DNA from: Saprospiraceae bacterium
GTDB lineage: Bacteria; Bacteroidota; Bacteroidia; Chitinophagales; Saprospiraceae
DNA length: 32,312 nucleotides
Assembly (NCBI GenBank): GCA_026996805.1
Contig: JALWKB010000230.1
Location: 1 to 32,312 of the forward strand
Direction: 5' to 3'
A program made the translations under genes and the position numbers. Below, piece after piece: positions 7,422 through 29,161 of this stretch. The notes beneath the pieces were generated by a model. That model searched no databases. It had not been told where the DNA came from and was given only the letters and a program-made list of their open reading frames with translations. Position 1 is the first letter of the stretch. Each line of letters opens with the position of its first letter.

Positions 7422-7454
7422 GCTGACGTACTGCCGGAAGAGCTTCTGAAGTCT

Positions 7455-7590
7455 ACGCCGTGTGAGGGGCCCGGAGGGCGCCGCGCCGATAGGCGACGGC
7501 GGTCCGAGCCCGCAGGGCGAAGGACCGAACGAACAGTGAGCCCGAAGGGGCCCGACCCGAAGCCCGCAAGGGCGAAGGGGCACACCCCTA
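7455..7590. repeat. Cluster of short GC-rich palindromes (GCCCGCAGGGC, GCCCGAAGGGGCCC, GCCCGCAAGGGC), REP-like spacer element
   Basis: Palindromic cores at 7508-7518, 7540-7553 and 7562-7573 with the recurrent context 'gcccg(a)nagggcgaagg'; immediately 3' of the esterase gene. Confidence 0.6.
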
Positions 7591-8008
7591 TCCCTTTCCC
7601 TACGGCATCCATCACGCACTTCGATAGTAGGATGAGACAAATGCATTATGATTTTTTGATATGTATAAAATGTTGATTTAAAATTGTTTTTTCAGAATTC
7701 AAAGTGGTTTTTCCATGCGGTGTCGGAATCCCACGGTGCAGGATGAGCGGGGAATTTCAAGCGCTAGGATGCTTTCCACGGTGCCATTTCGACCGACTCC
7801 TCTCGGCAAGAGCCCTTAATTGAGCACGTTCGCTTTCATGAGCGCTTTCGGCCAACGGCGCCAGTGGGCGTACACCTTCCGGAGGACCCGTGTGCCCGTA
7901 TAGGGTGCAATAATGCCCTCCTCGATGACAAGGTCCGAAGCGCTCTATCAACTCCCTGCCGACTACTCTTTTGTGCCGAGCTTTCCCTTCGAGCCGCACG
8001 CGTAGTAC

Positions 8009-8185
8009 CTAACATTTTCGGCTGTGCATGTCTCGACGTTCGTCATGGACATAGATGGCATAATCATCGCGGGTGTCGCGGTAGGTAAACCATACCCCAT
8101 CCAATCCGCCGAGCCGCCGTAGGATCAGCAGGGCGTCTTCGTGACTGGTATACTTCGTCGCTATTTCGCCAAATTTTGTCCACAC
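8009..8185 (-). pseudogene. Short orphan open frame, probable gene remnant (VWTKFGEIATKYTSHEDALLILRRLGGLDGVWFTYRDTRDDYAIYVHDERRDMHSRKC*)
   Basis: Protein-like composition but bounded by in-frame stops with no ATG (only GTG); sits in a stretch with no intact gene. Confidence 0.3.
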
Positions 8186-8433
8186 CTATCGTTGCATTTT
8201 TGATCGTGCAGGATATCGTGCATCTGCTTGTCTGGCCGCCTTCCGATAGGTCGATACGGTGCGTGGTACTCCATCGGAGGACGAACACTTTATTATTACT
8301 GTCTCATAATTATGAACACTTTCCTTGCACGACGAGGTGCACACCCCCTACTGCGATGCCGCTCTTCACAGGGTATCGGAGTTGGACACCGCATTTTTCG
8401 CTTTGGGCCGTTTGCTTGGGGCGAGGGGTGCCG

Positions 8434-8679
8434 TTAGTTCTTGTTCAGGCCGTACACTTCCACGATTTTGCCGTTGGGGGCAAAGACGTATCGCACGGTG
8501 CTATTGACGGTCTTCCACTGGTGGCGGCGCAGGTCGTAGTAACGGAAGTCGGTGTTGAGGAGGTAGGTGCTGTCGTTTTCGCGGCGTATCCAACGAACGG
8601 TATTGCTGGAGTTTTTGGTGCGCTTCCACGCTCGGTAATACGCCTTTGGGCATCTGCTCTGTTGTCCAATCTTCGCATT
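8434..8679 (-). pseudogene. C-terminal remnant of a gene lacking a start (…KAYYRAWKRTKNSSNTVRWIRRENDSTYLLNTDFRYYDLRRHQWKTVNSTVRYVFAPNGKIVEVYGLNKN*)
   Basis: Open frame from upstream stop (8680-8682) to stop at 8434-8436, no ATG in frame, coherent protein-like sequence; abuts the AT-rich island. Confidence 0.4.
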
Positions 8680-8841
8680 TTACACTCCATACTATCAATC
8701 AATTACAGTCACATTATGTATATTTGAGTTGACAACAAGATGTAATGTATAACAGAAGACAGGCATCTTCGACAAAAAACTAATGTTTTATGTCGTATTA
8801 TATTGATATTCTTCATTTTACACACATAAATTTAATATAAT

Positions 8842-10761
8842 ATGTATGAGTTTACCATTATTAATTTAGCTTTAACCTTATTTGCAATTCTATTAGTAAT
8901 TTATCTTTACATCAGTGTATATAGGCCACGGGTTAAGCCATCATCTGAGAAACAATCATCAGATGATGAGAATATAGAAACCGGAGATGGAATAAAAGTA
9001 GATACTGAAAACACACAGAACACACAGCAAAGCAACATTGATAATAATGATAGTGAAGATGTTTGGGATGAACTTGAATTTGATAGTGATAAAATAGGTG
9101 ACACATTAGCTGAAAATGATTATATTCCTGATGACGATTATGATATACCTTATCAGTATAAGGATACAATTGGCAAAGACTATGATTATTCATATCTTCC
9201 AGAGCTACCCAACCTTAAGGATGTTAATTTATATTGCTGGTTTAATAATGGCCTCTGGAGCATCGGCTTAATTGCACCAATTCACACTAAGAGCTCTATA
9301 CAGATCTCTACTAACAACCAAACTCTAAAGGTAATAGATGGATTTTATAACACCTATTATTTACCACAAAATCTGCTCGGTGATATTATCATAAGTCAAA
9401 ATGGTAAACAACAAATAATAAGATTACTAAACAATGAGAGGTCTAGTCGTTATTTGGTATTTAAAATTGGTAATAAATGGAGGGATGTTGGTAGATATAT
9501 CAAATCTAACACTATTAAAAAGGGATACTACTTAATAGTTACACATAAGGGAAACGAAGAAATAATTAAAGATGAACTGGGTGAGCCAATATCAGAATCG
9601 GAAAACACAGTCTTTGACGATGTTATAGTCTATGTTTATTACGTGCACGAGAAAAAAGAAAAACCACTTCTTTCAAGACCAGATATTAGAATAACTATTA
9701 CAGATAGCTCTGAGCATATCGAAGTCGAACATGAGAAAATACCAGTTGAGATACAGCACATAGACATATCATCAAACTCTAACAAGTTTATAAAATTACA
9801 AATCAACAATATTCACCAATTTAATGAGGCAAAGTTGCTATTTGAAAGCGGGAAATATATTAATTTAGACTTAGATAAAGTATATCAAATAATACCATTA
9901 TGGAGGCTTAAAGAATACTTAGATGATATCGAAGTGCCTTATGTGGGTAATAACAGTGAGACGATTCATCTCAAGGTCTCTCCTAGTCAAGAAAATATTA
10001 TACCTATTATTGAGCTCAAGTATAACTACAAATATATTTGCTATAATTGCAACTTTAAAACAAATGATTTAAAAATTGCTCTTGAGCATATAAAAAACAA
10101 TATTAATGACTCTTTTCATAGTATTAATAATTGCGTAAAGAATTATATACCATTTTTAGAAAAAGTATACAAAAGAGATATATATCACAATATAAGTTTG
10201 AGTTGCAATTCTAAGGAAAGATTCTTGCTTGTGTTGAGTGCTTTTCAGAATAACGTAAAACTTGTTCATAAAATATTCAAATGTAAATATTGCAAGTACA
10301 TTGTTTTTGATGAAGGTGGTGTTAGTCCTATTGAGTTAGTATATAATCATATTGAAAAAGAGTGCGAAGAAGCCCCTAGAATCCATGGAGTAGCAGTAAA
10401 AAAATATCTTGTAATTGATTCTGTCCAACACTTAATAGAGTATATTGAAGATAACGATGTTTTTGATTTGATAAATATAATATTTCAGTTTAATACTGAG
10501 CTTGAAGATAATGCATTTATTTTATGCATTACATTTCTAGTATATGAATGTACACTCTGTGGCCATCATTTTTGTGATTGTTTTGTGTTTGATGACGTAT
10601 ACGGCTTAAAGACCTATAATAACAACTTTATACCTGTTCAAGAAATTAGCCACATACTTGATGATTTGAGATACGATTTATACAATCAAAGGATATCGCA
10701 TATGATTGAGCATCATCCAGAAGAACTCACAAAATGTTATTTCTATGACTCAACACAGTGA
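8842..10761 (+). CDS. Membrane-anchored protein of unknown function with Cys/His zinc-finger-like clusters; putative partner of the downstream helicase
   Basis: 639-aa ORF; N-terminal TM (FTIINLALTLFAILLVIYLYISVY), acidic linker, then YICYNCNFKTNDLKIALEHIKNN, FKCKYCKYIVFDEGG...VYNHIEKEC, and YECTLCGHHFCDC clusters. AT-rich relative to flanks. Confidence 0.85.
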   Translation: MYEFTIINLALTLFAILLVIYLYISVYRPRVKPSSEKQSSDDENIETGDGIKVDTENTQNTQQSNIDNNDSEDVWDELEFDSDKIGDTLAENDYIPDDDYDIPYQYKDTIGKDYDYSYLPELPNLKDVNLYCWFNNGLWSIGLIAPIHTKSSIQISTNNQTLKVIDGFYNTYYLPQNLLGDIIISQNGKQQIIRLLNNERSSRYLVFKIGNKWRDVGRYIKSNTIKKGYYLIVTHKGNEEIIKDELGEPISESENTVFDDVIVYVYYVHEKKEKPLLSRPDIRITITDSSEHIEVEHEKIPVEIQHIDISSNSNKFIKLQINNIHQFNEAKLLFESGKYINLDLDKVYQIIPLWRLKEYLDDIEVPYVGNNSETIHLKVSPSQENIIPIIELKYNYKYICYNCNFKTNDLKIALEHIKNNINDSFHSINNCVKNYIPFLEKVYKRDIYHNISLSCNSKERFLLVLSAFQNNVKLVHKIFKCKYCKYIVFDEGGVSPIELVYNHIEKECEEAPRIHGVAVKKYLVIDSVQHLIEYIEDNDVFDLINIIFQFNTELEDNAFILCITFLVYECTLCGHHFCDCFVFDDVYGLKTYNNNFIPVQEISHILDDLRYDLYNQRISHMIEHHPEELTKCYFYDSTQ

Positions 10762-13700
10762 TCCCATACGGCTATCCAGAGAAATAGTCGATAGATATCG
10801 ACGTTATCTTCAGACAATGTTCTATTTCCGTGACCCGGAACTACGCCAATCCTTTAATGATGCTCTTTATTCTGAGTCGATGCCGCTCAGCAAGGGCCCT
10901 ATTTTAGAAGCATCCCCTCCTTTTAAACGCGGATTAACCGTAGGAGCGCTCATTGATGAATTTTTTCAACCGGATCCTGATGGTGAGTTGGAGAAATTAA
11001 AGCAGGCATTGTTCAAGGATAGGGAGCTTTACGTCCATCAAGAGAAAGCCATACGTAAAGTCTTTGGTCAAGATCGCAATATCCTTGTAGCTACAGGTAC
11101 AGGAAGTGGCAAAACCGAATCTTTTCTCTACCCTATTATTCTATATCTTTACAGAGAGTTTTTATCTAATGAATTGGAAAAACCTGGTGTGCGTGCACTT
11201 ATCCTTTACCCTATGAATGCATTGGTCAATGACCAACGCGAGCGTCTCGGAGAGATTTGTAAACGATTAAAAAATTTAGAAGCCAAATTCAAATTTACGT
11301 TTGGACAGTATATCGGAGAAACCCCTAATAATCCCGATGATTATAAGAAAAATGCCCAAGATTACATGGATCAAAAATTTGAGGGGGAATTGATCTTTAG
11401 AGACCAAATGCGAGATAATCCTCCTCATATTCTCATTACAAATTATTCAATGTTGGAGTACATGCTCATTCGACCTAAAGACAGCCCATTTTTCGATAGG
11501 GGCTCTGCTTCACGATGGAAATTTATTGTGATTGATGAAGCACATCAATACCGAGGTACAAAAGGCATGGAAATGGGCATGCTCATTAGAAGGTTAAAGC
11601 AAAGACTTCGTGAAGGTGGAAAAGAGGGCAAATTCGTTTGTATTGCTACAAGCGCCACAATTGCCAGTGGCAATAACTACAAAAAGGATGTGGCTCGGTT
11701 TGCTGATAATCTTTTCGGTGAGGGGTTTGATCAGGATGACATTATATTTGGGGAGAGAGAGCAACTATTTGACGAAGCATCTAATGCTACTATCGAGTTG
11801 ACATGGGAGGATTACAAGTACCTGCATGATATTATTATAAAAGAAGGTGAGAGTTCTATTACTCCTTCAAATGAACTTCAGAACATTAAAATCCCCCCGG
11901 GCTTATCAAAACATGAACGAGTAGGTCACATTCTATTACAAGACCAACGAGCGTTAAAATTGCTCCGTCTGATATCAGGCCAGGACTCCAACATTAAATA
12001 TGATTCTAATAAAAGTCCATACTCCAAGAGAGATGTTCATCAGTTGATCAAACATCCCATCTTTGCTGATCTGAATGATGTAGAAAGTAAGTTAACCGCA
12101 CTATCCACCTTAGTTGAATTGCTGACCATCGCGAAACGTCCCTATCAAAACGCCCCTATCATAACTGCGCGATATCATCTCTTCTTAAGATCCCTCGAAG
12201 GTGCCTTCATTAATTACTTACCCAAGAAATACATTTCACTAACGCGCGTGAGCGATTCTGGAAAGGGGAAACCCTTTGAAATAGCACTTTGTAGGGACTG
12301 CGGACAACATTACATTGTAGGAAGGATTAGTAGCTCCTTTTTGAGAGAGGCAATCCGTGATCCCGGTGAACCAGACTTCGGAACAAAGTTCTTTCTACAG
12401 TTGAATGATTTATACGACACCGATGAATATATAATAGCATCACAAGTAAATACTTCACCTAATACTAAGTCAGAAATCAAAAAACTATGTGTAGAATGTG
12501 GAAGGATTAATAACATAGATAGCGACAAACTTGATTGTGGACATAAATCATATATTCGCATCATACGCCTGCAGCAGCCAGATGAAAAGTCAGATCAATT
12601 GTCGAAGTGCCCGGTTTGCGAATACCGGGGTAACGACCCAGTTCGAGAGGTCATACACGGTTCTGATGGGCCACATGCGGTTATAGCCACCACTCTTCAT
12701 CAAAAATTACCCAAAGATCGTAAGAAAATACTCATCTTCGCCGATGGTCGTCAGGAAGCTGCTTTTTTTGCATGGTACCTCGAAAAGTCCTACAGGGAAA
12801 TAATTAGTCGGAATGTCATCAACAAAATTATAAGCAATATCGAGGATTATCCCAGTGATGGTGTAAGTCTTAAGTCATTAGCAGATAGAGCATATAAGAA
12901 TTACAAGAGCTTCTTCACAGAAAGCAAAACAGATGACAACCTTACGATACGTAAAAACATATGGAAGGCTCTTTATAGAGAGTTCCTATTTTCAGTAACA
13001 AGGTTTTCTCTTGAAGGTGTAGGGTTGATTCGTTGGGACTTCGATTTGATGAAAGATGGCCACTTTAAAATCCCCGATATTCTCTTTAGAGATCCATGGT
13101 CATTATCAGAGAAGGATGCCATGGAGTTGATAAAAATCCTATTCTACTACACCCGCATCGGTAGAGCAGTGGAATTGCGAACACCTTTAGAAATTTCATT
13201 AAATTGGGATGATTTAAACATTCCTTATCCTCAAACAAGTCTATATATAGGAAAGCCTAATAAGAAAAGAAACGTCACAGACTGGGAGGGTTTAACAACA
13301 AGTAGGGGTAGATTTCTTATAAAATATCTCTTGAGCAAACACAGTATGAGTAAAGACAAAGCTAAGAGGCATGCGCAGGAGTTGCTAAAGAGTATTTGGA
13401 ATGCAATGATAGATCATGACAAGCATTATAAATCCAATGATAAATTTTTAATCAACATCCACTCCAGTAAGAGGTTAAATCCATTTTGGTGGAGAGTATA
13501 TCCCATTTCTGAATACGAAACTATTTATCAATGCACGACTTGCTCCAACATTCAATATCTCAATATCGACAATTTATGCATCCGTCATAACTGTCCCGGT
13601 ACAGTCCAACCGATAAAGACCCACGACTTAACAACCAACCATTATCGAATTCTTTATAAAGAGGACTTACCAGAGCAGCTGAAAGTGGAAGAGCACACAG

Positions 13701-15556
13701 CACAATTGAGTAAAGAAAGGGCACGAGAAGTCCAAAATGACTTCAAGAAAGGTCATATTCACGCATTGAGTTGCTCCACAACCTTTGAGCTCGGAGTAGA
13801 CCTGGGAGACTTAGACACAGTGTTTTTGAGAAATGTACCTCCCGAACCCTTTAATTACATGCAAAGAGTTGGAAGAGCTGGCCGTAGAAGTGGCCATCCG
13901 GGTTTTTCAATTACCTACTGCAAACGTAGCCCACATGACTTATACCACTTTGTAAACCCTGAAGAAAGAATTATTGAGGGCAATATTATGCCTCCACGAT
14001 TATCGTACAATAACGAAAAAATAATAACTAGGCATATTACCGCTGTAGCATTGTCTTTCTTTTTTAGGGAGTATCCTGAGAGATTCCATAACGTAGAATC
14101 CTTTTTTGTAAAGTTAGAAGAGCCTCAAGCAGTAAGAGACTTGTACTCATTCCTTGAGCAGAAGAAAGATACACTCCAGAAATCCATCAATTCTGTATTT
14201 AAGGATAGTTTTTTTGATTTTAAGGATACTAAAGAAAATCTCATGGTCATCTCAACTGACCTACAAAGACAATTGGGATTGCACAATGGCCAATGGATAG
14301 ATAAAATCACTTTTAGAGATAGTCAACTTGCCAAAGGTGAAATAGAAATTATGAATGATTATAAGGATGTAAAGAGGTTAAAAGAAGATGCGATAGAGAG
14401 AGATGACTTCAAAACAGCACATTGGGCTAAGAAGAGATTGAATACTATTGCCAATGAAGATGTACTCTCTTTCCTTTCCAGGAAGGCCATTATACCCAAA
14501 TATGGCTTTCCTGTAGATGTGGTTGAATTAGACTTACATAAGACATACCATTCTGTTTCTCAAGCTGTAGATCTACAAAGAGACCTATCCATTGCTATAT
14601 CTGAATATGCCCCAACAAGTAAGGTCATTGCTAATAAACAAGAATGGCAGTCTTACGGCATTAAAAAGGTCGTTCAAAAGGAATCTCCAATTAAAGAGTA
14701 TTATTTATGCCGAAAGCACAATTTCTTGTTTTCTAGCAACATAGGCAAAAATGGCGTCAAAGATAAATGCTGCGACGATTTCAAAAAACGAGGGAAATAC
14801 CTTATCCCTCAATTTGGATTTATTACGGCAACACACAAAAAGCCGTCCCCCCCTTCACGCCGTCCATATAAACTGTTCTCCACTAGGCCATATTTTATGG
14901 GCTTTGAAGATGGACAATCACAACGTCAAATTATTGAATTCAACGGTTTTGAGCTTACAGGTGCAAGGCCAGGAAAAATGGTGGTTATTTGTGAAGGGAG
15001 AAAAGGAAGAGGGTTTCTTATCTGTAAGAAGTGTGGAGCTGGATTTACCACCTATGTCCCTGAACACAAGACCCCTTTTGGTTATTCTTGTGATGGAAAG
15101 TTGGAACGTCTTTGCTTAGCTCATGAGTTTGTTACCGATGTCCTCAGTATAAACTTTCCACTACCCACCAACAAAATTAACACATCAGCCCCCGGCTTCG
15201 CCTATTCGCTTGCTTATGCCCTTGTAGAAGGTACAGCTAATGTTCTCGATGTGCCGTCTACTGATTTAGCCGTCACGGTATCTTATGCTTCAGGGAGCAA
15301 AATTCCCCCTATTGTACTCTACGATAATGTACCTGGAGGAGCTGGTCTTGTTCAGCATCTTGAAGATCAAGAAATATTCTTTAAATGTCTTAATGCGGCT
15401 TATAATAGAGTGGATGGTAGATGTAATTGCGGTTATAATGAGAGTTGTTACGGTTGCCTACGATCCTACCAAAACCAATTTGTTCACCCATACTTGACAA
15501 GGGGTCCAATCAAGGATTATTTAGAAAATATTTTAAAGGATCTCAAAGTATTGTAG
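10745..15556 (+). CDS. Large DEAH-box superfamily 2 helicase with C-terminal DUF1998/MZB-like cysteine cluster (Druantia DruE / MrfA-YprA-like)
   Basis: ORF 10706..15556; probable start MTQHSDPIRLS at 10745, overlapping the previous stop by 17 nt. Walker A ATGTGSGKTES, LYPMNALVNDQRERL, NYSMLEYMLIRP, DEAH in VIDEAHQYRG, motif III ATSATIA, motif VI QRVGRAGRR, internal CxxC pairs, C-terminal CNCGYNESCYGCLRSYQNQFVHP. Confidence 0.93.
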   Translation: MTQHSDPIRLSREIVDRYRRYLQTMFYFRDPELRQSFNDALYSESMPLSKGPILEASPPFKRGLTVGALIDEFFQPDPDGELEKLKQALFKDRELYVHQEKAIRKVFGQDRNILVATGTGSGKTESFLYPIILYLYREFLSNELEKPGVRALILYPMNALVNDQRERLGEICKRLKNLEAKFKFTFGQYIGETPNNPDDYKKNAQDYMDQKFEGELIFRDQMRDNPPHILITNYSMLEYMLIRPKDSPFFDRGSASRWKFIVIDEAHQYRGTKGMEMGMLIRRLKQRLREGGKEGKFVCIATSATIASGNNYKKDVARFADNLFGEGFDQDDIIFGEREQLFDEASNATIELTWEDYKYLHDIIIKEGESSITPSNELQNIKIPPGLSKHERVGHILLQDQRALKLLRLISGQDSNIKYDSNKSPYSKRDVHQLIKHPIFADLNDVESKLTALSTLVELLTIAKRPYQNAPIITARYHLFLRSLEGAFINYLPKKYISLTRVSDSGKGKPFEIALCRDCGQHYIVGRISSSFLREAIRDPGEPDFGTKFFLQLNDLYDTDEYIIASQVNTSPNTKSEIKKLCVECGRINNIDSDKLDCGHKSYIRIIRLQQPDEKSDQLSKCPVCEYRGNDPVREVIHGSDGPHAVIATTLHQKLPKDRKKILIFADGRQEAAFFAWYLEKSYREIISRNVINKIISNIEDYPSDGVSLKSLADRAYKNYKSFFTESKTDDNLTIRKNIWKALYREFLFSVTRFSLEGVGLIRWDFDLMKDGHFKIPDILFRDPWSLSEKDAMELIKILFYYTRIGRAVELRTPLEISLNWDDLNIPYPQTSLYIGKPNKKRNVTDWEGLTTSRGRFLIKYLLSKHSMSKDKAKRHAQELLKSIWNAMIDHDKHYKSNDKFLINIHSSKRLNPFWWRVYPISEYETIYQCTTCSNIQYLNIDNLCIRHNCPGTVQPIKTHDLTTNHYRILYKEDLPEQLKVEEHTAQLSKERAREVQNDFKKGHIHALSCSTTFELGVDLGDLDTVFLRNVPPEPFNYMQRVGRAGRRSGHPGFSITYCKRSPHDLYHFVNPEERIIEGNIMPPRLSYNNEKIITRHITAVALSFFFREYPERFHNVESFFVKLEEPQAVRDLYSFLEQKKDTLQKSINSVFKDSFFDFKDTKENLMVISTDLQRQLGLHNGQWIDKITFRDSQLAKGEIEIMNDYKDVKRLKEDAIERDDFKTAHWAKKRLNTIANEDVLSFLSRKAIIPKYGFPVDVVELDLHKTYHSVSQAVDLQRDLSIAISEYAPTSKVIANKQEWQSYGIKKVVQKESPIKEYYLCRKHNFLFSSNIGKNGVKDKCCDDFKKRGKYLIPQFGFITATHKKPSPPSRRPYKLFSTRPYFMGFEDGQSQRQIIEFNGFELTGARPGKMVVICEGRKGRGFLICKKCGAGFTTYVPEHKTPFGYSCDGKLERLCLAHEFVTDVLSINFPLPTNKINTSAPGFAYSLAYALVEGTANVLDVPSTDLAVTVSYASGSKIPPIVLYDNVPGGAGLVQHLEDQEIFFKCLNAAYNRVDGRCNCGYNESCYGCLRSYQNQFVHPYLTRGPIKDYLENILKDLKVL

Positions 15557-18893: not shown

Positions 18894-19412
18894 ATGATTG
18901 CTCTACTCCGGCGATCTACGATTTTCATGGGTTTGTCCACTTGGCTTTTACTTCATGCCACATTGGGAAATGCCCAATTCGCCGTCTTGCCCATCGGCGG
19001 CGATGCTACTGGTCCAGACGGATCAGCTTCCTACTCCGTCGGACTGCCCGCCTACCAACACTACCGCAGCGCCATCCTCTACGTACAGGAAGGCGTTCAA
19101 CAGCCCAATCTCCCCCGCAACACGCGCACGGCCACTCCCGCAGCCATCCCCCTACAACTCTATCCCAACCCCGCTGCGGAACAGCTCTTCCTGCACTTTC
19201 CCAGCGATGCACCCGAAGGGCTCCACTACCGCATCATCGACACCCGAGGACGCACCGTCCAAGTGGGGCGACTGTCCCACACTGCCGCTATTCCCTCCAT
19301 CGACCTGCGCGCACTGCCCAATGGGCTGTACCTATTGCAGATCTACCGCCTACAAAAGGGGCTGCCATCTGCGATTTCATACCACAGCTTCATCAAACAA
19401 CTGGGACAATGA
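18894..19412 (+). CDS. A1: small secreted protein with T9SS type A (Por) C-terminal sorting domain
   Basis: Signal peptide, then QFAVLPIGGDATGPDGSASYSVGLPAYQHYRSAILYVQEGVQQPN, then CTD LQLYPNPAAEQLFLHFPSDAPEGLHYRIIDTRGRTVQVGRLSHTAAIPSIDLRALPNGLYLLQIYRLQKG... Confidence 0.9.
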   Translation: MIALLRRSTIFMGLSTWLLLHATLGNAQFAVLPIGGDATGPDGSASYSVGLPAYQHYRSAILYVQEGVQQPNLPRNTRTATPAAIPLQLYPNPAAEQLFLHFPSDAPEGLHYRIIDTRGRTVQVGRLSHTAAIPSIDLRALPNGLYLLQIYRLQKGLPSAISYHSFIKQLGQ

Positions 19413-19438
19413 CCTCAAAAACATAAAAACCTACAGCT

Positions 19439-22400
19439 ATGAAAACAATCACTACACTTTTCGGATGTGTATTCTGCGCAGTGCTTTGCACCTTGAATCT
19501 CACGGCTCAGGTGCCCGACAAGATGAGCTATCAGGCCGTCTTGCGCGACGCCTCCAACCGGCTACTCGTCAACCAGACGGTGGGCATACGTGTGTCCATC
19601 CTACAGGATGCCCCCAACGGCCGCGAAGTCTTCGTCGAAACCCACACCGCCACCACCAACGACAACGGCTTGGTGACCATCGAAATCGGCGGTGGCAACC
19701 GTATCCTCGGTAGGCTCCTCGCCATACCGTGGGCCAATGCCGCTTACTTCCTCAAAGTCGAATGGGATCCCGACGGCGGCACCGACTACACGCTCAGCCA
19801 TACGGCCCAGCTCCTCAGTGTACCCTATGCCTTCCATGCCCGTACCGTCGAAATACCCGACGATGCCGATGCCGACCCCACCAATGAGTTTCAAACACTC
19901 ACCAAAAACGGCAACCTCATCATCCTCTCCAACGGCGGCAGCGTCGTCGACGAAGTCGATGATGCCGACCCCGATCCGCAAAACGAAATCCAAACACTCT
20001 CCAAAACGGGAAACACCATCACCCTCTCCAAAGGCGGCGGCAGCGTCGTCGATGCAGTCGATGATGCCGATGCCGACCCCAACAACGAGCTGCAGACACT
20101 CTCCATCAGCGGAGATCAGCTCAGCATCTCCGGTGGCAATACCGTCACCCTGCCCGACGCCGATCCCAACAACGAGCTGCAGACGCTCTCCATCAGCGGT
20201 GACCAGCTCAGCATCTCCAACGGCAACACCGTCACTCTACCCGATGCCGATCCCAACAACGAAATCCAGACCCTCTCCATTACGGGCGACCAGCTCTCCA
20301 TCTCCGACGGCAACACCGTCATCCTGCCCGATGGCGACGAGTTCAACGAAATACAAATGCTCTCCCGATCGGGCAACATCGTCACCCTCTCTCCCGATGG
20401 AGGTTTTGTCAGCATAGAAGACGACGACTCAGATCCCGCCAACGAGCTGCAGACGCTCTCCATCTCGGGCGACCAGCTCTCCATCTCCGACGGCAATACC
20501 GTCACTCTACCCGATGCCGATCCCAACAACGAAATACAAACCCTCTCCGTCAGCGGTGACCAGCTCTCCATCTCCGACGGCAACACCGTCACCCTACCCG
20601 ATGCCGACCCAAACAACGAAATACAGACCCTCTCCAAAGTGGGAAACACCATCACGCTCTCACACGGTGGCGGTAGTGTCACCGACGAGGTCGACGATGC
20701 CGATGCTGATCCCAACAACGAAATACAGACGCTTTCCGTCAGCGGCAACATGCTCACCATTAGCGGCGGCAACACTGTCACCCTACCCACCGGTGCAGAA
20801 AAGGTAGACGACCTGCTCGACGGCAATTCCGAGCCCGGAGGAGAGAGCGTCTTCATCGGCGAAAACGCCGGCGCCAACGACGACGAAACCGACAACTACA
20901 ACACCGGCATGGGTTTCAATGCCTTGACGAGCAACACCTCCGGTGAATTCAACGCCGCCTTTGGCGCTTATGCATTGCAGTCCAACACCACCGGAAATAG
21001 AAATACCTCCTTCGGTTACAGAGCAATGGTCAATAACACTACGGGTGTCGACAATGTCGCTGTCGGTGTACACGCCCTTCGATCAAACACTACCGGCTCA
21101 TTCAATGTCGCCCTTGGCCCTTACGCCCTATGGCTCAACACCGACCGATCCGAATTAGTCGCTATAGGTTACAATGCACTGTACAACAACGGTACAGGGG
21201 CTATTTTAGCACATCAAGCAACAGAAAATACCGCCGTAGGAGCACATGCTCTCAGGGAAAATACGACCGGATACTACAATACCGCCATAGGTAGCTACGC
21301 CCTGTATTCCAACACAACAGGATCTCAAAACACTGCCATAGGTACAAGAGCCCTGTATTCCAACACAATAGGATATAATAATACCGCCATAGGTAGAGAC
21401 GCTATGTATTTCAACACAACAGGATCTCAAAACACTGCCTTAGGTAGAAGAGCCCTGTATTCCAACACAACAGGATATAATAATACCGCCATAGGTAGAG
21501 ACGCCATGTATTTCAACACAACAGGATATCAAAACACTGCCTTAGGTAGAAGAGCCCTGTATTCCAACACAACAGGATCTAATAATACCGCCATAGGTAG
21601 AGACGCCATGTATGACAACACAACTGGAATTGATAACACTGCCGTAGGCAGAAGTGCTATGTTTAACAACATTTCAGGTGATTCCAACACTGCTGTAGGA
21701 ATGTTGGCATTATATGCCAACACCTTTGGAAAACTTAACACCGCACTTGGCAATAGTGCCCATTCTACCTGCGACAACTGCAATAACTCCACCGGCATCG
21801 GCTACAATGCCAGTCCCACCCTCTCCAACCGCATACACATCGGCAATACCGCCATCACATGGATAGGCGGGGAAGTCACATGGTCTACTTATTCCGATCG
21901 GCGATTTAAGCGCAACATCAGCGACGACGTCCACGGCCTCGACTTCATCCTCCGACTGCGACCCGTCACCTACTACATCGACAAAGACCTCCAAGACTCC
22001 CTCATGGGCGTGGTTGACAACGCCGACTACCCCGAAAAGTACGACATCGAAAAGATCAAGTTCTCCGGCTTCCTCGCCCAAGAAGTCGAAGCCGCCGCCC
22101 AAGCCGTGGGATACGACTTCAGCGGCCTCACTAGACCTAAACACGACAGAGATCTCTACTCCCTCTCCTACGCCTCCTTCGTCGTGCCCCTCGTCAAAGC
22201 CGTCCAGGAACAACAAGCACTCATCCAGCGGCAACAAGACCTCATCGCCACACTGCAAGAAAAAAATGAAGGCCTAAACGCACAGGTCAAAGCACATGAG
22301 GATAAAATAGCTACTCTTTTACACAAAAAGGAGGCGCTTGACGCTGAAGTTCAGTTTCTCAAGGAGCAAAACCAACAACAACAGCAGTGGCTCCAACAGC

Positions 22401-22501
22401 TGGCACTACAAGTCCAACAGCTCAAAGCCGAACTCGCCCAACAGCGCTCATCGCAGCAAAACAACTCGACAACAGCACAGCAGTACAATCAACAACCGTA
22501 A
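19439..22501 (+). CDS. B1: secreted adhesin / 'tail fiber domain' protein with stalk repeats, YadA-like head repeats, peptidase S74 intramolecular chaperone and C-terminal coiled coil
   Basis: Signal peptide MKTITTLFGCVFCAVLCTLNLTAQ; VPDKMSYQAVLRDASNRLL N-domain; DADPNNE(L/I)QTLS(I/V)SGDQLSISDGNTVTLP repeats; NTAIGRDAMYFNTTGYQ repeats; YSDRRFKRNISDDVHGLDFILRLRPVTYYID (S74); Gln-rich coiled coil. Confidence 0.92.
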   Translation: MKTITTLFGCVFCAVLCTLNLTAQVPDKMSYQAVLRDASNRLLVNQTVGIRVSILQDAPNGREVFVETHTATTNDNGLVTIEIGGGNRILGRLLAIPWANAAYFLKVEWDPDGGTDYTLSHTAQLLSVPYAFHARTVEIPDDADADPTNEFQTLTKNGNLIILSNGGSVVDEVDDADPDPQNEIQTLSKTGNTITLSKGGGSVVDAVDDADADPNNELQTLSISGDQLSISGGNTVTLPDADPNNELQTLSISGDQLSISNGNTVTLPDADPNNEIQTLSITGDQLSISDGNTVILPDGDEFNEIQMLSRSGNIVTLSPDGGFVSIEDDDSDPANELQTLSISGDQLSISDGNTVTLPDADPNNEIQTLSVSGDQLSISDGNTVTLPDADPNNEIQTLSKVGNTITLSHGGGSVTDEVDDADADPNNEIQTLSVSGNMLTISGGNTVTLPTGAEKVDDLLDGNSEPGGESVFIGENAGANDDETDNYNTGMGFNALTSNTSGEFNAAFGAYALQSNTTGNRNTSFGYRAMVNNTTGVDNVAVGVHALRSNTTGSFNVALGPYALWLNTDRSELVAIGYNALYNNGTGAILAHQATENTAVGAHALRENTTGYYNTAIGSYALYSNTTGSQNTAIGTRALYSNTIGYNNTAIGRDAMYFNTTGSQNTALGRRALYSNTTGYNNTAIGRDAMYFNTTGYQNTALGRRALYSNTTGSNNTAIGRDAMYDNTTGIDNTAVGRSAMFNNISGDSNTAVGMLALYANTFGKLNTALGNSAHSTCDNCNNSTGIGYNASPTLSNRIHIGNTAITWIGGEVTWSTYSDRRFKRNISDDVHGLDFILRLRPVTYYIDKDLQDSLMGVVDNADYPEKYDIEKIKFSGFLAQEVEAAAQAVGYDFSGLTRPKHDRDLYSLSYASFVVPLVKAVQEQQALIQRQQDLIATLQEKNEGLNAQVKAHEDKIATLLHKKEALDAEVQFLKEQNQQQQQWLQQLALQVQQLKAELAQQRSSQQNNSTTAQQYNQQP
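21268..21650 (+). repeat. 51-bp (17-aa) tandem repeats encoding NTAIGRDAMYFNTTG(Y/S)(N/Q) head units (B1)
   Basis: ggatct at 21422 and ggatat at 21473 are 51 nt apart; repeated units encode NTA(I/L)G(R/T/S)xA(L/M)Y(S/F)N(T)TG. Confidence 0.85.
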
Positions 22502-22585
22502 ATGGTCCGCCTCATGCCATCAGCACATCCAAAAGATAGAGCTTTGTACCAACCTATGCCAAGCCACACCACACAGACCGACCTC

Positions 22586-22612
22586 GGAAGGGGAGTGCTC
22601 AGCTCCCCTTCC
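22586..22612 (+). terminator. Candidate terminator hairpin after B1 (GGAAGGGGAG-loop-CTCCCCTTCC)
   Basis: 10-bp perfect inverted repeat, followed by cacccctcttttc. Confidence 0.6.
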
Positions 22613-22701
22613 ACCCCTCTTTTCACCTATACCACTAATCACAAAAACCCTGAAAAGATCTACGACATAGAGGCAAACATGAAGGATAACTTTTACAATG
22701 G

Positions 22702-22709
22702 TATAAAAT
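22702..22709 (+). promoter_or_regulatory. TATAAAAT box 10 nt upstream of A2 ATG
   Basis: gTATAAAATcgttggcactATG. Confidence 0.4.
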
Positions 22710-22719
22710 CGTTGGCACT

Positions 22720-23238
22720 ATGATTGCACGACTCTTGAAACACTTCCAACACGCACTTTGGTTTGCGGGGATAACTTTCTTCGTTCATCCATCCTCCGCC
22801 CAATTCGCCGTCTTGCCCATCGGCGGAGATGCTTCCGGGCCAGACGGATCAGCTTCCTACTCCGTCGGACTGCCCGCCTACCAACACTACCGCAGCGCCA
22901 TCCTCTACGTCCAGGAAGGCGTTCAACAGCCCAATCTCCCCCGCAGCACGCGCACGGCCACTCCCGCAGCCATCCCCCTACAACTCTATCCCAACCCCGC
23001 TACGGAACAGCTCTTCCTGCACTTTCCCAGCGATGCTCCCGAAGGGCTTCACTACCGCATCATCGACACCCGAGGACGCACCGTCCAAGCGGGGCGACTG
23101 TCCCATACTTCCGCTACTCCCTCCATCGACCTGCGCACACTGCCCAATGGGCTGTACCAATTGCAGGTCTACCGCCTACAAAAGGGCCGGTCATCTGCGA
23201 TTTCATACCACAGCTTCATCAAACAACTGGGACAATGA
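22720..23238 (+). CDS. A2: small secreted protein with T9SS type A sorting domain
   Basis: Near-identical to A1 after the signal peptide; signal peptide differs (MIARLLKHFQHALWFAGITFFVHPSSAQ). Confidence 0.9.
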   Translation: MIARLLKHFQHALWFAGITFFVHPSSAQFAVLPIGGDASGPDGSASYSVGLPAYQHYRSAILYVQEGVQQPNLPRSTRTATPAAIPLQLYPNPATEQLFLHFPSDAPEGLHYRIIDTRGRTVQAGRLSHTSATPSIDLRTLPNGLYQLQVYRLQKGRSSAISYHSFIKQLGQ

Positions 23239-23264
23239 CCTCAAAAACATAAAAACATACAGCT

Positions 23265-26200
23265 ATGAAAACAATCACTACACTTTTCGGATGTGTATTC
23301 TGCGCAGTGCTTTGCACCTTGAGTCTCACGGCTCAGGTGCCCGACAAGATGAGCTATCAGGCCGTCTTGCGCGACGCCTCCAACCGGCTACTCGTCAACC
23401 AGACGGTGGGCATACGTGTGTCCATCCTACAGGATGCCCCCAACGGCCGCGAAGTCTTCGTCGAAACCCACACCGCCACCACCAACGACAACGGCTTGGT
23501 GACCATCGAAATCGGCGGTGGCAACCGTATCCTCGGTAGGCTCCTCGCCATACCGTGGGCCAATGCCGCTTACTTCCTCAAAGTCGAATGGGATCCCGAC
23601 GGCGGCACCGACTACACGCTCAGCCATACGGCCCAGCTCCTCAGTGTACCCTATGCCTTCCATGCCCGTACCGTCGAAATACCCGACGATGCCGATGCCG
23701 ACCCCACCAATGAGTTTCAAACACTCACCAAAAACGGCAACCTCATCATCCTCTCCAACGGCGGCAGCGTCGTCGACGAAGTCGATGATGCCGACCCCGA
23801 TCCGCAAAACGAAATCCAAACACTCTCCAAAACGGGAAACACCATCACCCTCTCCAAAGGCGGCGGCAGCGTCGTCGATGCAGTCGATGATGCCGATGCC
23901 GACCCCAACAACGAGCTGCAGACACTCTCCATCAGCGGAGATCAGCTCAGCATCTCCGGTGGCAATACCGTCACCCTGCCCGACGCCGATCCCAACAACG
24001 AGCTGCAGACGCTCTCCATCAGCGGTGACCAGCTCAGCATCTCCAACGGCAACACCGTCACTCTACCCGATGCCGATCCCAACAACGAAATCCAGACCCT
24101 CTCCATTACGGGCGACCAGCTCTCCATCTCCGACGGCAACACCGTCATCCTGCCCGATGGCGACGAGTTCAACGAAATACAAATGCTCTCCCGATCGGGC
24201 AACATCGTCACCCTCTCTCCCGATGGAGGTTTTGTCAGCATAGAAGACGACGACTCAGATCCCGCCAACGAGCTGCAGACGCTCTCCATCTCGGGCGACC
24301 AGCTCTCCATCTCCGACGGCAATACCGTCACTCTACCCGATGCCGATCCCAACAACGAAATACAAACCCTCTCCGTCAGCGGTGACCAGCTCTCCATCTC
24401 CGACGGCAACACCGTCACCCTACCCGATGCCGACCCAAACAACGAAATACAGACCCTCTCCAAAGTGGGAAACACCATCACGCTCTCACACGGTGGCGGT
24501 AGTGTCACCGACGAGGTCGACGATGCCGATGCTGATCCCAACAACGAAATACAGACGCTTTCCGTCAGCGGCAACATGCTCACCATTAGCGGCGGCAACA
24601 CTGTCACCCTACCCACCGGTGCAGAAAAGGTAGACGACCTGCTCGACGGCAATTCCGAGCCCGGAGGAGAGAGCGTCTTCATCGGCGAAAACGCCGGCGC
24701 CAACGACGACGAAACCGACAACTACAACACCGGCATGGGTTTCAATGCCTTGACGAGCAACACCTCCGGTGAATTCAACGCCGCCTTTGGCGCTTATGCA
24801 TTGCAGTCCAACACCACCGGAAATAGAAATACCTCCTTCGGTTACAGAGCAATGGTCAATAACACTACGGGTGTCGACAATGTCGCTGTCGGTGTACACG
24901 CCCTTCGATCAAACACTACCGGCTCATTCAATGTCGCCCTTGGCCCTTACGCCCTATGGCTCAACACCGACCGATCCGAATTAGTCGCTATAGGTTACAA
25001 TGCACTGTACAACAACGGTACAGGGGCTATTTTAGCACATCAAGCAACAGAAAATACCGCCGTAGGAGCACATGCTCTCAGGGAAAATACGACCGGATAC
25101 TACAATACCGCCATAGGTAGCTACGCCCTGTATTCCAACACAACAGGATCTCAAAACACTGCCATAGGTACAAGAGCCCTGTATTCCAACACAATAGGAT
25201 ATAATAATACCGCCATAGGTAGAGACGCTATGTATTTCAACACAACAGGATCTCAAAACACTGCCTTAGGTAGAAGAGCCCTGTATTCCAACACAACAGG
25301 ATATAATAATACCGCCATAGGTAGAGACGCCATGTATTTCAACACAACAGGATATCAAAACACTGCCTTAGGTAGAAGAGCCCTGTATTCCAACACAACA
25401 GGATCTAATAATACCGCCATAGGTAGAGACGCCATGTATGACAACACAACTGGAATTGATAACACTGCCGTAGGCAGAAGTGCTATGTTTAACAACATTT
25501 CAGGTGATTCCAACACTGCTGTAGGAATGTTGGCATTATATGCCAACACCTTTGGAAAACTTAACACCGCACTTGGCAATAGTGCCCATTCTACCTGCGA
25601 CAACTGCAATAACTCCACCGGCATCGGCTACAATGCCAGTCCCACCCTCTCCAACCGCATACACATCGGCAATACCGCCATCACATGGATAGGCGGGGAA
25701 GTCACATGGTCTACTTATTCCGATCGGCGATTTAAGCGCAACATCAGCGACGACGTCCACGGCCTCGACTTCATCCTCCGACTGCGACCCGTCACCTACT
25801 ACATCGACAAAGACCTCCAAGACTCCCTCATGGGCGTGGTTGACAACGCCGACTACCCCGAAAAGTACGACATCGAAAAGATCAAGTTCTCCGGCTTCCT
25901 CGCCCAAGAAGTCGAAGCCGCCGCCCAAGCCGTGGGATACGACTTCAGCGGCCTCACTAGACCTAAACACGACAGAGATCTCTACTCCCTCTCCTACGCC
26001 TCCTTCGTCGTGCCCCTCGTCAAAGCCGTCCAGGAACAACAAGCACTCATCCAGCGGCAACAAGACCTCATCGCCACACTGCAAGAAAAAAATGAAGGCC
26101 TAAACGCACAGGTCAAAGCACATGAGGATAAAATAGCTACTCTTTTACACAAAAAGGAGGCGCTTGACGCTGAAGTTCAGTTTCTCAAGGAGCAAAACCA

Positions 26201-26327
26201 ACAACAACAGCAGTGGCTCCAACAGCTGGCACTACAAGTCCAACAGCTCAAAGCCGAACTCGCCCAACAGCGCTCATCGCAGCAAAACAACTCGACAACA
26301 GCACAGCAGTACAATCAACAACCGTAA
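23265..26327 (+). CDS. B2: adhesin with S74 chaperone, near-identical duplicate of B1
   Basis: 1020 aa; differs from B1 only at the N-to-S change in LNLTAQ/LSLTAQ by comparison of the supplied translations. Confidence 0.92.
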   Translation: MKTITTLFGCVFCAVLCTLSLTAQVPDKMSYQAVLRDASNRLLVNQTVGIRVSILQDAPNGREVFVETHTATTNDNGLVTIEIGGGNRILGRLLAIPWANAAYFLKVEWDPDGGTDYTLSHTAQLLSVPYAFHARTVEIPDDADADPTNEFQTLTKNGNLIILSNGGSVVDEVDDADPDPQNEIQTLSKTGNTITLSKGGGSVVDAVDDADADPNNELQTLSISGDQLSISGGNTVTLPDADPNNELQTLSISGDQLSISNGNTVTLPDADPNNEIQTLSITGDQLSISDGNTVILPDGDEFNEIQMLSRSGNIVTLSPDGGFVSIEDDDSDPANELQTLSISGDQLSISDGNTVTLPDADPNNEIQTLSVSGDQLSISDGNTVTLPDADPNNEIQTLSKVGNTITLSHGGGSVTDEVDDADADPNNEIQTLSVSGNMLTISGGNTVTLPTGAEKVDDLLDGNSEPGGESVFIGENAGANDDETDNYNTGMGFNALTSNTSGEFNAAFGAYALQSNTTGNRNTSFGYRAMVNNTTGVDNVAVGVHALRSNTTGSFNVALGPYALWLNTDRSELVAIGYNALYNNGTGAILAHQATENTAVGAHALRENTTGYYNTAIGSYALYSNTTGSQNTAIGTRALYSNTIGYNNTAIGRDAMYFNTTGSQNTALGRRALYSNTTGYNNTAIGRDAMYFNTTGYQNTALGRRALYSNTTGSNNTAIGRDAMYDNTTGIDNTAVGRSAMFNNISGDSNTAVGMLALYANTFGKLNTALGNSAHSTCDNCNNSTGIGYNASPTLSNRIHIGNTAITWIGGEVTWSTYSDRRFKRNISDDVHGLDFILRLRPVTYYIDKDLQDSLMGVVDNADYPEKYDIEKIKFSGFLAQEVEAAAQAVGYDFSGLTRPKHDRDLYSLSYASFVVPLVKAVQEQQALIQRQQDLIATLQEKNEGLNAQVKAHEDKIATLLHKKEALDAEVQFLKEQNQQQQQWLQQLALQVQQLKAELAQQRSSQQNNSTTAQQYNQQP

Positions 26328-26411
26328 ATGGTCCGCCTCATGCCATCAGCACATCCAAAAGATAGAGCTTTGTACCAACCTATGCCAAGCCACACCACAC
26401 AGACCGACCTC

Positions 26412-26438
26412 GGAAGGGGAGTGCTCAGCTCCCCTTCC
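26412..26438 (+). terminator. Candidate terminator hairpin after B2
   Basis: Same inverted repeat as 22586..22612. Confidence 0.6.
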
Positions 26439-26527
26439 ACCCCTCTTTTCACCTATACCACTAATCACAAAAACCCTGAAAAGATCTACGACATAGAGGC
26501 AAACATGAAGGATAACTTTTACAATGG

Positions 26528-26535
26528 TATAAAAT
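26528..26535 (+). promoter_or_regulatory. TATAAAAT box 10 nt upstream of A3 ATG
   Basis: gTATAAAATcgttggcactATG. Confidence 0.4.
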
Positions 26536-26545
26536 CGTTGGCACT

Positions 26546-27061
26546 ATGATTGCACGACTCTTGAAACACTTCCAACACGCGCTTTGGTTCGCGGGAATAA
26601 CCATTTTCACTCAACACGCCTCCGCCCAATTCGCCGTCTTGCCCATCGGCGGCGATGCTTCCGGGCCAGACGGATCAGCTTCCTACTCCGTCGGGCTGCC
26701 CGCCTACCAACACTACCGCAGCGCCATCCTCTACGTCCAGGAAGGCGTCCAGCAGCCCAATCTCCCCCGCAGCACGCGCACGGCCACTCCCGCAGCCATC
26801 TCCCTACAGCTCTATCCCAACCCCGCTGCGGAGCGGCTCTTCCTGCTCCTACCCAACGACATACCCGCAGGGCTCCACTACCGCATCATCGACTCCCGAG
26901 GACGCACCGTCCAAGCGGGGCGACTGTCCCATACTGCCGCTACTCCCTCCATCGACCTGCGCGCACTGCCCAATGGGCCGTACCAATTGCAGGTCTACAG
27001 CCTACAAAAGGGCCAGTCATCTCCGATTTCATCCCACAGCTTCATCGTACAAAGTCACTAA
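26546..27061 (+). CDS. A3: small secreted protein with T9SS type A sorting domain
   Basis: Homologous to A1/A2; more divergent CTD (AERLFLLLPNDIPAGLHYRIIDSRGRTVQAGRLSHT...). Confidence 0.9.
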   Translation: MIARLLKHFQHALWFAGITIFTQHASAQFAVLPIGGDASGPDGSASYSVGLPAYQHYRSAILYVQEGVQQPNLPRSTRTATPAAISLQLYPNPAAERLFLLLPNDIPAGLHYRIIDSRGRTVQAGRLSHTAATPSIDLRALPNGPYQLQVYSLQKGQSSPISSHSFIVQSH

Positions 27062-27076
27062 TCAAAACGCTGAGCT

Positions 27077-29161
27077 ATGAAGACATTTGCTGCATACTTC
27101 GGATGTGTGATTTGCACGGCACTTTGCACCTTGAGTCTCACGGCTCAGGTGCCCGACAAGATGAGCTATCAGGCCGTCTTGCGCGACGCCTCCAACCATC
27201 TGCTCTCCAATCAGACCGTGGGACTGCGCATAGCCATCTTGCGCGATGGGCCCACGGGAGCGGAAGTGTATGCCGAGACCCACACTGTCACCACTAATAC
27301 CAACGGTCTCGTCACCCTCGAAATCGGTGGCGGCACTGTCGTGGTGGGTAGCTTCGATTCCATCGATTGGAGTGCGGGTACCTACTTCCTCAAGGTCGAA
27401 TGGGATCCCGACGGCGGCACCGACTACACGCTCAGCCATAGCGGCCAACTCCTCAGTGTACCCTACGCTTTCCTCGCCCGCAATGCCGCGATAACGGACA
27501 ATGACGATAATGACCCGACAAACGAACTGCAGACGCTTTCCATCGTAGGCAACCAGCTCAGCATTTCCCGCGGCAACACGGTCACGATACCCACGGGGGC
27601 ACAAAAAGTAGACGACCTGCTCGATGGAAAGACCGACTCGAGCGGATCCAGCAACTTCATCGGTTATAAAGCTGGTGAGAAAGACGACGGAACGGAAAAT
27701 AACAACACCGCCTTGGGATATCAAGCCCTTGCGAACAACACATCGGGCTCGCACAATACAGCCTTAGGCGCATCGACCCTACAGTGGAATTCCACCGGCA
27801 CTTCAAATACGGCCATTGGTATAGAAGCTCTACATCCAAACACACGTGGTTCGAACAATATCGCTATAGGATACAGAGCAATAACTGCCCGCACTACGAG
27901 TTCCAATAACTTAGCAATCGGAAACATCTCTTTATTTCGAATCACCAAGGATGGAACGAATAACACCGGTATTGGAGAGGCCTCTCTGTATTCCAATACC
28001 TCCGGAAAGGGAAACACTGCAATAGGTCCCAATACCTTAGCGCATAACACTACGGGCGAAAACAACACCGCCATTGGTTATTTTACCTTAGGGGAAAACA
28101 CTCAAGGATCGAAGAACACTGCCATAGGATCATTACAGAGCAATGTGGATGGTTCGGGAAACACCGCATTAGGTGTTAATGCATTGGATAGTAATAGGCA
28201 TGGTAGCTTCAATACCGCCTACGGTAGCTATGCGCTACATGCATACGACTCCTTTGGAAAATCCAACACAGCAGTGGGTGCTAATGCAATGACTCTCAAC
28301 AAAATCCATGGGAATTATAACACAGCAATTGGCCACTTGAGTGGCAAGTCCAACGATACGTGTAACAACTCCACCAGTATTGGCTACAACACCACACCTA
28401 TTTCCTCCAACCGCATCCACATCGGCAATACCTCCGTCACTTGGATCGGCGGACAAGTCGCATGGTCCACTTATTCCGATCAGCGCATTAAGCGCAACAT
28501 CAGCGACGACGTCCACGGCCTCGACTTCATCCTCCGGCTGCGACCCGTCACCTACTACATCGACAAAGACCTCCAAGACTCCCTCATGGGCGTGACCGAC
28601 AATGCCGATTACCTCGCAAAGCACGACATCGAAAAGATCCGCTTTTCGGGCTTCCTCGCCCAAGAAGTCGAAGCAGCAGCCCGCGCCGTGGGCTACGATT
28701 TTAGCGGCCTCCAGCGTCCCGCCAACGACCGCGAACTCTACTCCCTCTCCTACGCCTCCTTCGTCGTACCACTCGTCAAAGCCGTCCAAGAACAGCAAGC
28801 TATCATCAGCCGTCAACGGGATCTCCTCGAAGAGCTTACCGTTGACGAGGAACGCCTCAGCACTCTTTTGCAAAATCAAACGTCGAAGATTCAATCCCTC
28901 GAGGGGAAAAACACCGTACTGCGCAAAGAGCTCAAACAGCAAGAGGAGAAAATACAAAAGCAAAAGGACCACATACAGTCCCTACAAGACAAGAGAAAAG
29001 ACATCTCTTCCAGGATTGCCACACTTCAGGACCTAATGCGACACAGACAGCAGCGCTTACATCAGCTCACACACCATATCCGTCTCCTTCAGGCCGAACT
29101 CAACCACTATACAGCACAAAATTCGCAAGGCGACGATACAACGCAAAATCGCAATCAGTGA
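27077..29161 (+). CDS. B3: adhesin with short stalk, YadA-like head repeats, S74 chaperone and coiled coil
   Basis: 694 aa; same N-domain, single ELQTLSIVGNQLSISRGNTVTIP stalk unit, divergent head, YSDQRIKRNISDDVHGLDFILRLRPVTYYID. Confidence 0.92.
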   Translation: MKTFAAYFGCVICTALCTLSLTAQVPDKMSYQAVLRDASNHLLSNQTVGLRIAILRDGPTGAEVYAETHTVTTNTNGLVTLEIGGGTVVVGSFDSIDWSAGTYFLKVEWDPDGGTDYTLSHSGQLLSVPYAFLARNAAITDNDDNDPTNELQTLSIVGNQLSISRGNTVTIPTGAQKVDDLLDGKTDSSGSSNFIGYKAGEKDDGTENNNTALGYQALANNTSGSHNTALGASTLQWNSTGTSNTAIGIEALHPNTRGSNNIAIGYRAITARTTSSNNLAIGNISLFRITKDGTNNTGIGEASLYSNTSGKGNTAIGPNTLAHNTTGENNTAIGYFTLGENTQGSKNTAIGSLQSNVDGSGNTALGVNALDSNRHGSFNTAYGSYALHAYDSFGKSNTAVGANAMTLNKIHGNYNTAIGHLSGKSNDTCNNSTSIGYNTTPISSNRIHIGNTSVTWIGGQVAWSTYSDQRIKRNISDDVHGLDFILRLRPVTYYIDKDLQDSLMGVTDNADYLAKHDIEKIRFSGFLAQEVEAAARAVGYDFSGLQRPANDRELYSLSYASFVVPLVKAVQEQQAIISRQRDLLEELTVDEERLSTLLQNQTSKIQSLEGKNTVLRKELKQQEEKIQKQKDHIQSLQDKRKDISSRIATLQDLMRHRQQRLHQLTHHIRLLQAELNHYTAQNSQGDDTTQNRNQ

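Follow-up and report, generated by a model that had tools for sequence, protein, structure and literature searches.

An AT-rich gene pair of a Saprospiraceae bacterium: a DruE-like helicase without recognisable nuclease and its fast-evolving modular partner, a probable Druantia-kind defence module

The window analyzed here is a stretch of 32,312 nucleotides (nt) from the genome of a Saprospiraceae bacterium (contig JALWKB010000230.1, assembly GCA_026996805.1), and its element of interest is an AT-rich island at approximately 8.73-15.57 kb made up of two co-directional genes on the + strand, which encode a partner protein (P0001) and a large helicase (P0002). An earlier sequence-only reading had described an AT-rich, co-directional pair, and this holds: GC content is 30.4% for the P0001 gene and 39.5% for the P0002 gene (26.7% and 36.7% at third codon positions, GC3), against 53.8% for the window minus the island and a GC3 of 60-72% for the neighbouring genes. 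The 17-nt overlap of the two genes proposed by the same reading was also recovered, as the ATG of the helicase at 10745 falls within the P0001 gene, whose stop codon occupies 10759-10761. With respect to size, the 639 amino acids (aa) given for the first protein are correct, while the helicase, put at approximately 1604 aa, has 1603 aa when counted from ATG 10745. Its open reading frame (ORF) taken from the first TTG covers 10706-15556 (+) and encodes 1616 aa; the start codons of the orthologues align near ATG 10745. The main features of the locus are the following.

8842..10761, + strand: partner gene P0001, 639 aa, putative sensor/regulator of the helicase (ORF; partner profile)
10745..15556, + strand: helicase gene P0002, 1603 aa, DruE-like YprA-family superfamily 2 (SF2) helicase (PADLOC, Pfam, tree)
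10745..10761, + strand: 17-nt overlap of P0001 and P0002, including the stop of the first gene (ORF coordinates)
7450..8730, no strand: left border with no intact gene (small overlapping ORFs only; GC drops abruptly at about 8,700)

P0002 is matched in Pfam by DEAD (3.5e-21), Helicase_C (7.5e-14) and MZB (4.1e-11), and thus combines the SF2 DEAH core with the DUF1998/MZB zinc domain, the combination that defines the YprA family.

11096..11116, + strand: Walker A GTGSGKT (GxGxGKT), residues 118-124, within ATGTGSGKT (motif)
11534..11545, + strand: DEAH box, residues 264-267 (motif)
13664..13888, + strand: Helicase_C (RecA2), residues 974-1048 (Pfam PF00271, 7.5e-14)
15209..15460, + strand: MZB/DUF1998 zinc-binding domain, residues 1489-1572 (Pfam PF09369, 4.1e-11)

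Between the two helicase domains lie CxxC pairs at 516, 582, 622 and 930, an arrangement that PMC12458937 reports for the Druantia/ARMADA lineage. The protein lacks a recognisable C-terminal nuclease of the PLD or Vsr type: no PLD motif (HxKx4D) was found in it, and there is no space for such a domain because the chain stops 31 residues after MZB.

With respect to family, the DruE models of PADLOC score P0002 at 595-356 bits, led by DruE1 (594.6 bits, 1.5e-178) and followed by DruE3 (517), DruE2 (428) and DruE4 (392). The best model outside DruE is SngC with 101 bits, DpdJ and DrmA do not exceed this value (DrmA 53 bits), and a general DEAH-helicase model gives 103 bits. A genuine DruE1 (locus G436, found with the PADLOC model) scores 1946 bits on the DruE1 model, and P0002 is therefore a relative and not an orthologue. 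Its closest match in the PDB is 9tu7, a DEAD/DEAH helicase of 2108 aa (3e-76), while Bacillus YprA (6znp) follows at 1.1e-25.

A tree of 33 YprA helicases (LG+C20, with support from the Shimodaira-Hasegawa-like approximate likelihood ratio test, SH-aLRT), built without DruE II or GIH50614.1, the published representative of III-B, and with ARMADA and BRIGADE labels assigned from neighbouring genes, places the window helicase clade within the Druantia branch (SH-aLRT 99). Its sister is a helicase of a Ruminococcus phage (98), after which come G225 and a cyanobacterial plasmid group. The branch next to these unites DruE I with DruE III (92), while ARMADA I, ARMADA II and, from a haloarchaeon, a BRIGADE-like protein fall outside the Druantia branch. 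Long branches (DruE1, G225) leave the deeper order of the tree uncertain. On the DruE1 match and the branch support, P0002 qualifies as a DruE-like helicase, DruE being the component that the Druantia types have in common.

MrfA, which works with a partner named MrfB, has a role in DNA repair. P0002 shares DEAD, Helicase_C and MZB with MrfA and counts Bacillus YprA among its solved relatives, so that it could be read as a MrfA/YprA-type repair enzyme beside an unrelated upstream gene. However, P0002 is twice the size of MrfA (the YprA chain in 6znp has 751 aa), carries the additional CxxC pairs between the RecA domains and matches 9tu7 far better; within the phylum, close orthologues turned up in five of 396 genomes and in no sampled relative, and the partner is present wherever this could be checked. 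We thus regard this alternative as very improbable. Identity with housekeeping MrfA is rejected on size, tree and distribution. According to these sequence comparisons, P0002 is a Druantia-branch YprA-family helicase and not a housekeeping MrfA. The sequence-only reading had called the helicase DruE/MrfA-like and taken the pair for an anti-phage system; a grouping with housekeeping MrfA/YprA orthologues, which would have spoken against it, is contradicted by the PADLOC scores, the tree and the absence of the gene from the sampled relatives of the genus and family.

The same genome carries a second YprA-family helicase of 1714 aa (G000:C5, locus L061:6219-11363, - strand), which groups with ARMADA I and whose start is overlapped by a 295-aa gene. 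Between its endolysin and exonuclease genes, Ruminococcus phage NatCom_28274 (L083:6242-13665, PV036439.1) contains a pair of genes without annotation, one of which encodes a DruE-like helicase; the two proteins have 917 and 1558 aa, the genes overlap by 4 nt and the helicase shows 30% identity over the full length. Cyanobacterial plasmids (L034, L035, L036) have in common a DruE-like helicase of approximately 2100 aa, preceded by a gene of 307-310 aa, with a longer partner further upstream; the two Nostoc partners match no PADLOC model. No relation was found between the partner family of the window and the partners of the Ruminococcus phage, the cyanobacterial plasmids or G225.

The helicase was traced through the 396 phylum genomes and also through genomes of the candidate phylum KSB1. 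Close orthologues of P0002, with 44-52% identity, come from KSB1 and from a small number of Bacteroidota-like genomes. In G130, G096, G107, G330 and the KSB1 genomes G452 (JAKEEU010000327), G533 and G528 a gene of 666-898 aa lies directly upstream of the helicase and overlaps or abuts it, i.e., at seven of the seven assessable orthologues as well as in the window; the count leaves out G513, where the helicase begins at the contig end, and G473, where the locus is degraded or broken. These partners are mutually homologous (G130 and G096, 8e-86; G107 and KSB1, 2e-43; KSB1 and G330, 2e-16). When a profile was made from the seven other paired partners alone, P0001 reached 47.6 bits on it (E 3.8e-14), compared with 6.2 bits for the best of 500 shuffles, and the core partner profile finds P0001 in the whole genome of the window at E 4.2e-10. 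Over the 396 genomes the partner profile picks out exactly the five that carry a close helicase orthologue; a sixth match (17 bits, four stops) is noise. A homologous gene directly upstream across the helicase clade thus marks a new partner family. Its divergence is about twice that of the helicase, e.g., 20% versus 52% identity in one comparison and 42% versus 70% in another, which resembles what has been reported for DruH relative to DruE (PMC13192584). In two KSB1 genomes a gene of 169 aa runs over the partner start (L054:9874-10383 and L055:9708-10217, both on the - strand), and may possibly be a third component there; its L054 copy has no match in Pfam or PADLOC.

Within P0001 the following features were recognised.

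8857..8913, + strand: predicted N-terminal membrane helix, residues 6-24 (Kyte-Doolittle 2.58)
8932..9216, + strand: acidic linker, residues 31-125, 28 D/E versus 6 K/R (composition)
9226..9543, + strand: N-domain conserved across the partner family, residues 129-234, with FKL..GR motif (hidden Markov model domain 1, 29.2 bits; hhalign probability 93.6, E 2e-7)
10039..10119, + strand: zinc-finger-like motif 1, C400, C403, H416, H426 (aligned C-terminal module of five partners)
10282..10365, + strand: zinc-finger-like motif 2, C481, C484, H503, C508, KIFKCKYC...HIEKECEEAPR (same alignment)
10549..10716, + strand: zinc-finger-like motif 3, C570, C573 ... H620, H625, with a window-specific insertion (same alignment)

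As judged from profile positions, the N-domain and the zinc module are retained in P0001, the C-domain is retained in part, and the middle domain is missing. Linking motifs of the zinc module, KIFKCKYC and HIEKECEEAPR, align with KIYQCPYN and HIERECKDARR in KSB1, and the CxxC pairs of P0001 are C400/403, C481/484 and C570/573. Searched on its own, P0001 had no significant match in Pfam, NCBIfam, PADLOC, PHROGs, the PDB, plasmids or viral contigs, and a protein search of plasmids with P0006, a KSB1 partner, gave no relatives. Structure models were computed from two-sequence alignments and are unusable, with a mean predicted local distance difference test (pLDDT) score of 29 for P0001 and 27 for P0006; residues 6-24 are the sole stretch of the P0001 model above 50.

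Both ends of the partner vary within the family. The zinc module of P0001 aligns with G107, G452, G533 and G528, so that fingers are present in five of the eight paired partners. At G130 (L022:5853-8168) the C-terminus is a uS9-like domain (Pfam 2.7e-14; uS9 chains of the PDB up to 3e-12), and the reading frame stays open through this tail as far as the stretch shared with the beginning of the helicase gene. At G330 (L057:547-2925) the tail has an eL13-like motif (PDB 3.4e-4; Pfam 0.007, below cut-off), and the sequence ahead of it looks immunoglobulin (Ig)-like by eye. The G096 tail has no assignment. An N-terminal membrane helix is predicted in three of the eight (the window and, as transmembrane (TM)-like helices in the same place, G130 and G096); the G107 partner begins with a predicted coiled coil, and the remaining ones with neither helix nor coil. 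Because N-termini and tails vary in this way, anchoring and zinc fingers appear from the alignments to be optional parts of a modular family. The description of the partner as a "TM-tethered zinc protein" in the sequence-only reading consequently fits the window copy, with its predicted helix and fingers, but not the family. The property that zinc fingers, uS9 and eL13 likely have in common, going by these domain matches, is nucleic-acid binding, which suggests that the tails may read nucleic acid or the ribosome.

Transfer is the natural reading of how the island was acquired, because its distribution is patchy and its GC content aberrant. The partner gene was not found in the 59 sampled relatives (genus, family and order), in which the only match, in G042, is weak and has an internal stop, and within its own genus, family and order the sampled genomes gave P0002 no match at E<=1e-40. 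In the sole congeneric genome, inspected for an empty site, the flanks are not kept, and DNA from the right of the island matches over at most 98 bases. Direct or inverted repeats bordering the island gave nothing convincing. To its left, 7,450-8,730 contains no gene-like ORF, in keeping with the "gene debris" of the sequence-only reading, a fair description, although the parent gene of the stretch was not identified; a second copy was not found in the same genome.

In our view the pair probably reached the genome by horizontal transfer and forms a two-gene, Druantia-kind defence module, in which a nuclease-less DruE-like helicase is joined to a dedicated, overlapping regulator that takes the position of DruH in Druantia III but comes from a different, modular family. 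We infer the defence role from several observations: the homology to the Druantia branch, which contains validated anti-phage systems (PMC12458937; PMC13192584); the context at G096 (a TIR-domain gene, a serine recombinase and type I restriction-modification genes) and at G513 (a reverse transcriptase and a DNA methylase); the phage-borne pair of like size; the fast-evolving partner; and the patchy distribution over two phyla.

Several points weigh against this interpretation. At G107 and G130 the genes around the pair that were recognised, without a family search, look like ordinary housekeeping genes, only some of the partners have the membrane helix or the zinc fingers, and the unusable models (pLDDT 27-29) lend no fold backing to the suggested role as a sensor. 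Moreover, the KSB1 genomes G516, G521 and G522 have partner-like genes (L101:6245-8539, L102:5376-6980, L103:4365-5963) with no helicase adjacent and no P0002 match at E<=1e-60 anywhere in the genome. The G516 copy has a membrane helix, a coiled coil, the core and three fingers, while G521 and G522 have an N-domain gene in common, set in a like order of genes. Because three genomes hold such helicase-less copies, the partner can apparently act alone or in other settings. It might then be an independent membrane or nucleic-acid-binding protein, related to stress or transcription, which adjoins the helicase by chance or for some other reason. We consider this quite unlikely, since the overlapping or abutting arrangement recurs in seven further genomes of two phyla and is kept despite partner drift to ~20% identity. 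With eight paired and three solo copies, the association is not perfect; it is strong without being absolute, and the co-occurrence expected by the sequence-only reading for the 639-aa family is found in two phyla but fails for the solo copies.

A further alternative is a true Druantia type III in which P0001 is a strongly diverged DruH. Gene order and number agree, as a single large gene immediately precedes DruE; DruH, too, evolves fast and has Ig-like domains (PMC13192584); and a weak hhalign overlap with DruH recurs over ~103 columns (E 0.15-0.5). However, the DruH models of PADLOC match no partner, while two DruH controls score 2466 and 131 bits, hhalign of the partner against four DruHs gives a probability of 0.1-0.4%, and P0002 is without PLD nucleases and does not fall in the DruE III clade. 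This alternative is therefore unlikely in our opinion.

Under the preferred reading of a Druantia-kind module with its own regulator, a mechanism can be proposed. In Druantia III of E. coli, DruE, the common Druantia motor, loads onto DNA that has a 3' tail, while DruH is likely the sensor and evolves fast relative to DruE; the subtype-specific partner has been suggested to decide the mode of activation (PMC13192584). By analogy, P0001 may sense infection and license P0002. The protein would be anchored by its membrane helix, and other partners by a coiled coil or another N-terminus; the partner core with its exchangeable C-terminal tail, in P0001 three fingers that presumably bind zinc, would recognise an infection signal. 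The partner would then license the helicase or load it on 3'-tailed single-stranded intermediates of phage DNA, and phage replication could be blocked through unwinding or occupancy instead of cutting, or alternatively through recruitment of a host nuclease. Because the helicase has no nuclease, unwinding, a replication block or host-nuclease recruitment is the more likely output.

The core helicase kind is already known, and so is a largely nuclease-less Druantia III-like branch (PMC12458937). The partner family and its ribosomal-protein-like tails are not described in the literature searched, supplementary tables aside, and the main text of PMC12458937 does not name the family. A bolder idea, which we put forward only tentatively, is that of a new Druantia type whose specificity resides in exchangeable C-terminal tails borrowed from nucleic-acid-binding modules, including ribosomal proteins; it would detect a phage seizing ribosomes, rRNA or translation, or would offer ribosomal mimics as bait, coupled to a nuclease-less DruE helicase and in some copies located at the membrane. 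A partner without detectable relation to DruH and with swappable tails, ribosomal-protein modules among them, would represent an independent way to trigger the same DruE motor. Tail exchange between homologues would offer a direct test of what a Druantia sensor recognises, and the nuclease-less DruE-like helicase a test of whether unwinding alone stops a phage.

Elsewhere in the window, the right neighbours at 15.7-18.5 kb are a DUF5685 protein and one without assigned family (Pfam). Positions 18894-31698 hold a tandem duplication, in which a 172-aa type IX secretion tail protein and a 1020-aa Peptidase_S74 protein occur twice; the two 1020-aa copies are 99.9% identical, and relatives of 694 and 695 aa come after the duplication. 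Type IX secretion tail matches number 52 in the genome, which points to a probable Bacteroidota host.

Regarding known systems, MrfA/YprA has the same helicase core and MZB domain but is a protein of ~750 aa that would be expected in relatives at the same locus, whereas P0002, with its 1603 aa, is unmatched in the sampled ones. DISARM differs in that the DrmA helicase and the DUF1998 protein DrmB are separate genes, while helicase and DUF1998 are fused in the P0002 ORF, which the DrmA model scores at the 53 bits given above. ARMADA I and II employ YprA helicases related to those of Druantia, but P0002 has no adjacent BrxHII-like helicase or PglX-like methylase and falls outside the ARMADA clades. 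Druantia I, II and IV share the DruE core, DruE1 being the top PADLOC model, but the window has a single partner, and P0001 matches no PADLOC Druantia subunit. For type I (DruA-DruD), the genome of the window has no match to DruA (PF14236), and none of the DruA loci of the phylum has a DruE nearby; for types II (DruM, DruF, DruG) and IV (DruF, DruL), PADLOC gave no match for P0001. In a Pfam scan (not PADLOC), the ORFs neighbouring the pair have other domains or none.

Druantia III (DruH-DruE) likewise consists of two genes read in one direction, in which a large, fast-evolving partner immediately precedes a helicase of the DruE branch. It differs in that the window partner is not detectably a DruH and that DruE III has ~2100 aa with PLD nuclease domains, while P0002 has neither this length nor such domains and sits on a separate sub-branch. 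A further likeness, drawn from its description, is to the mostly nuclease-less, Druantia III-like YprA branch termed III-B (representative GIH50614.1), which also stands apart from canonical DruE III (PMC12458937). P0002 probably belongs to this III-B branch of Bell et al. (2025), with which it agrees in two features, the lack of a nuclease and the separation from DruE III.

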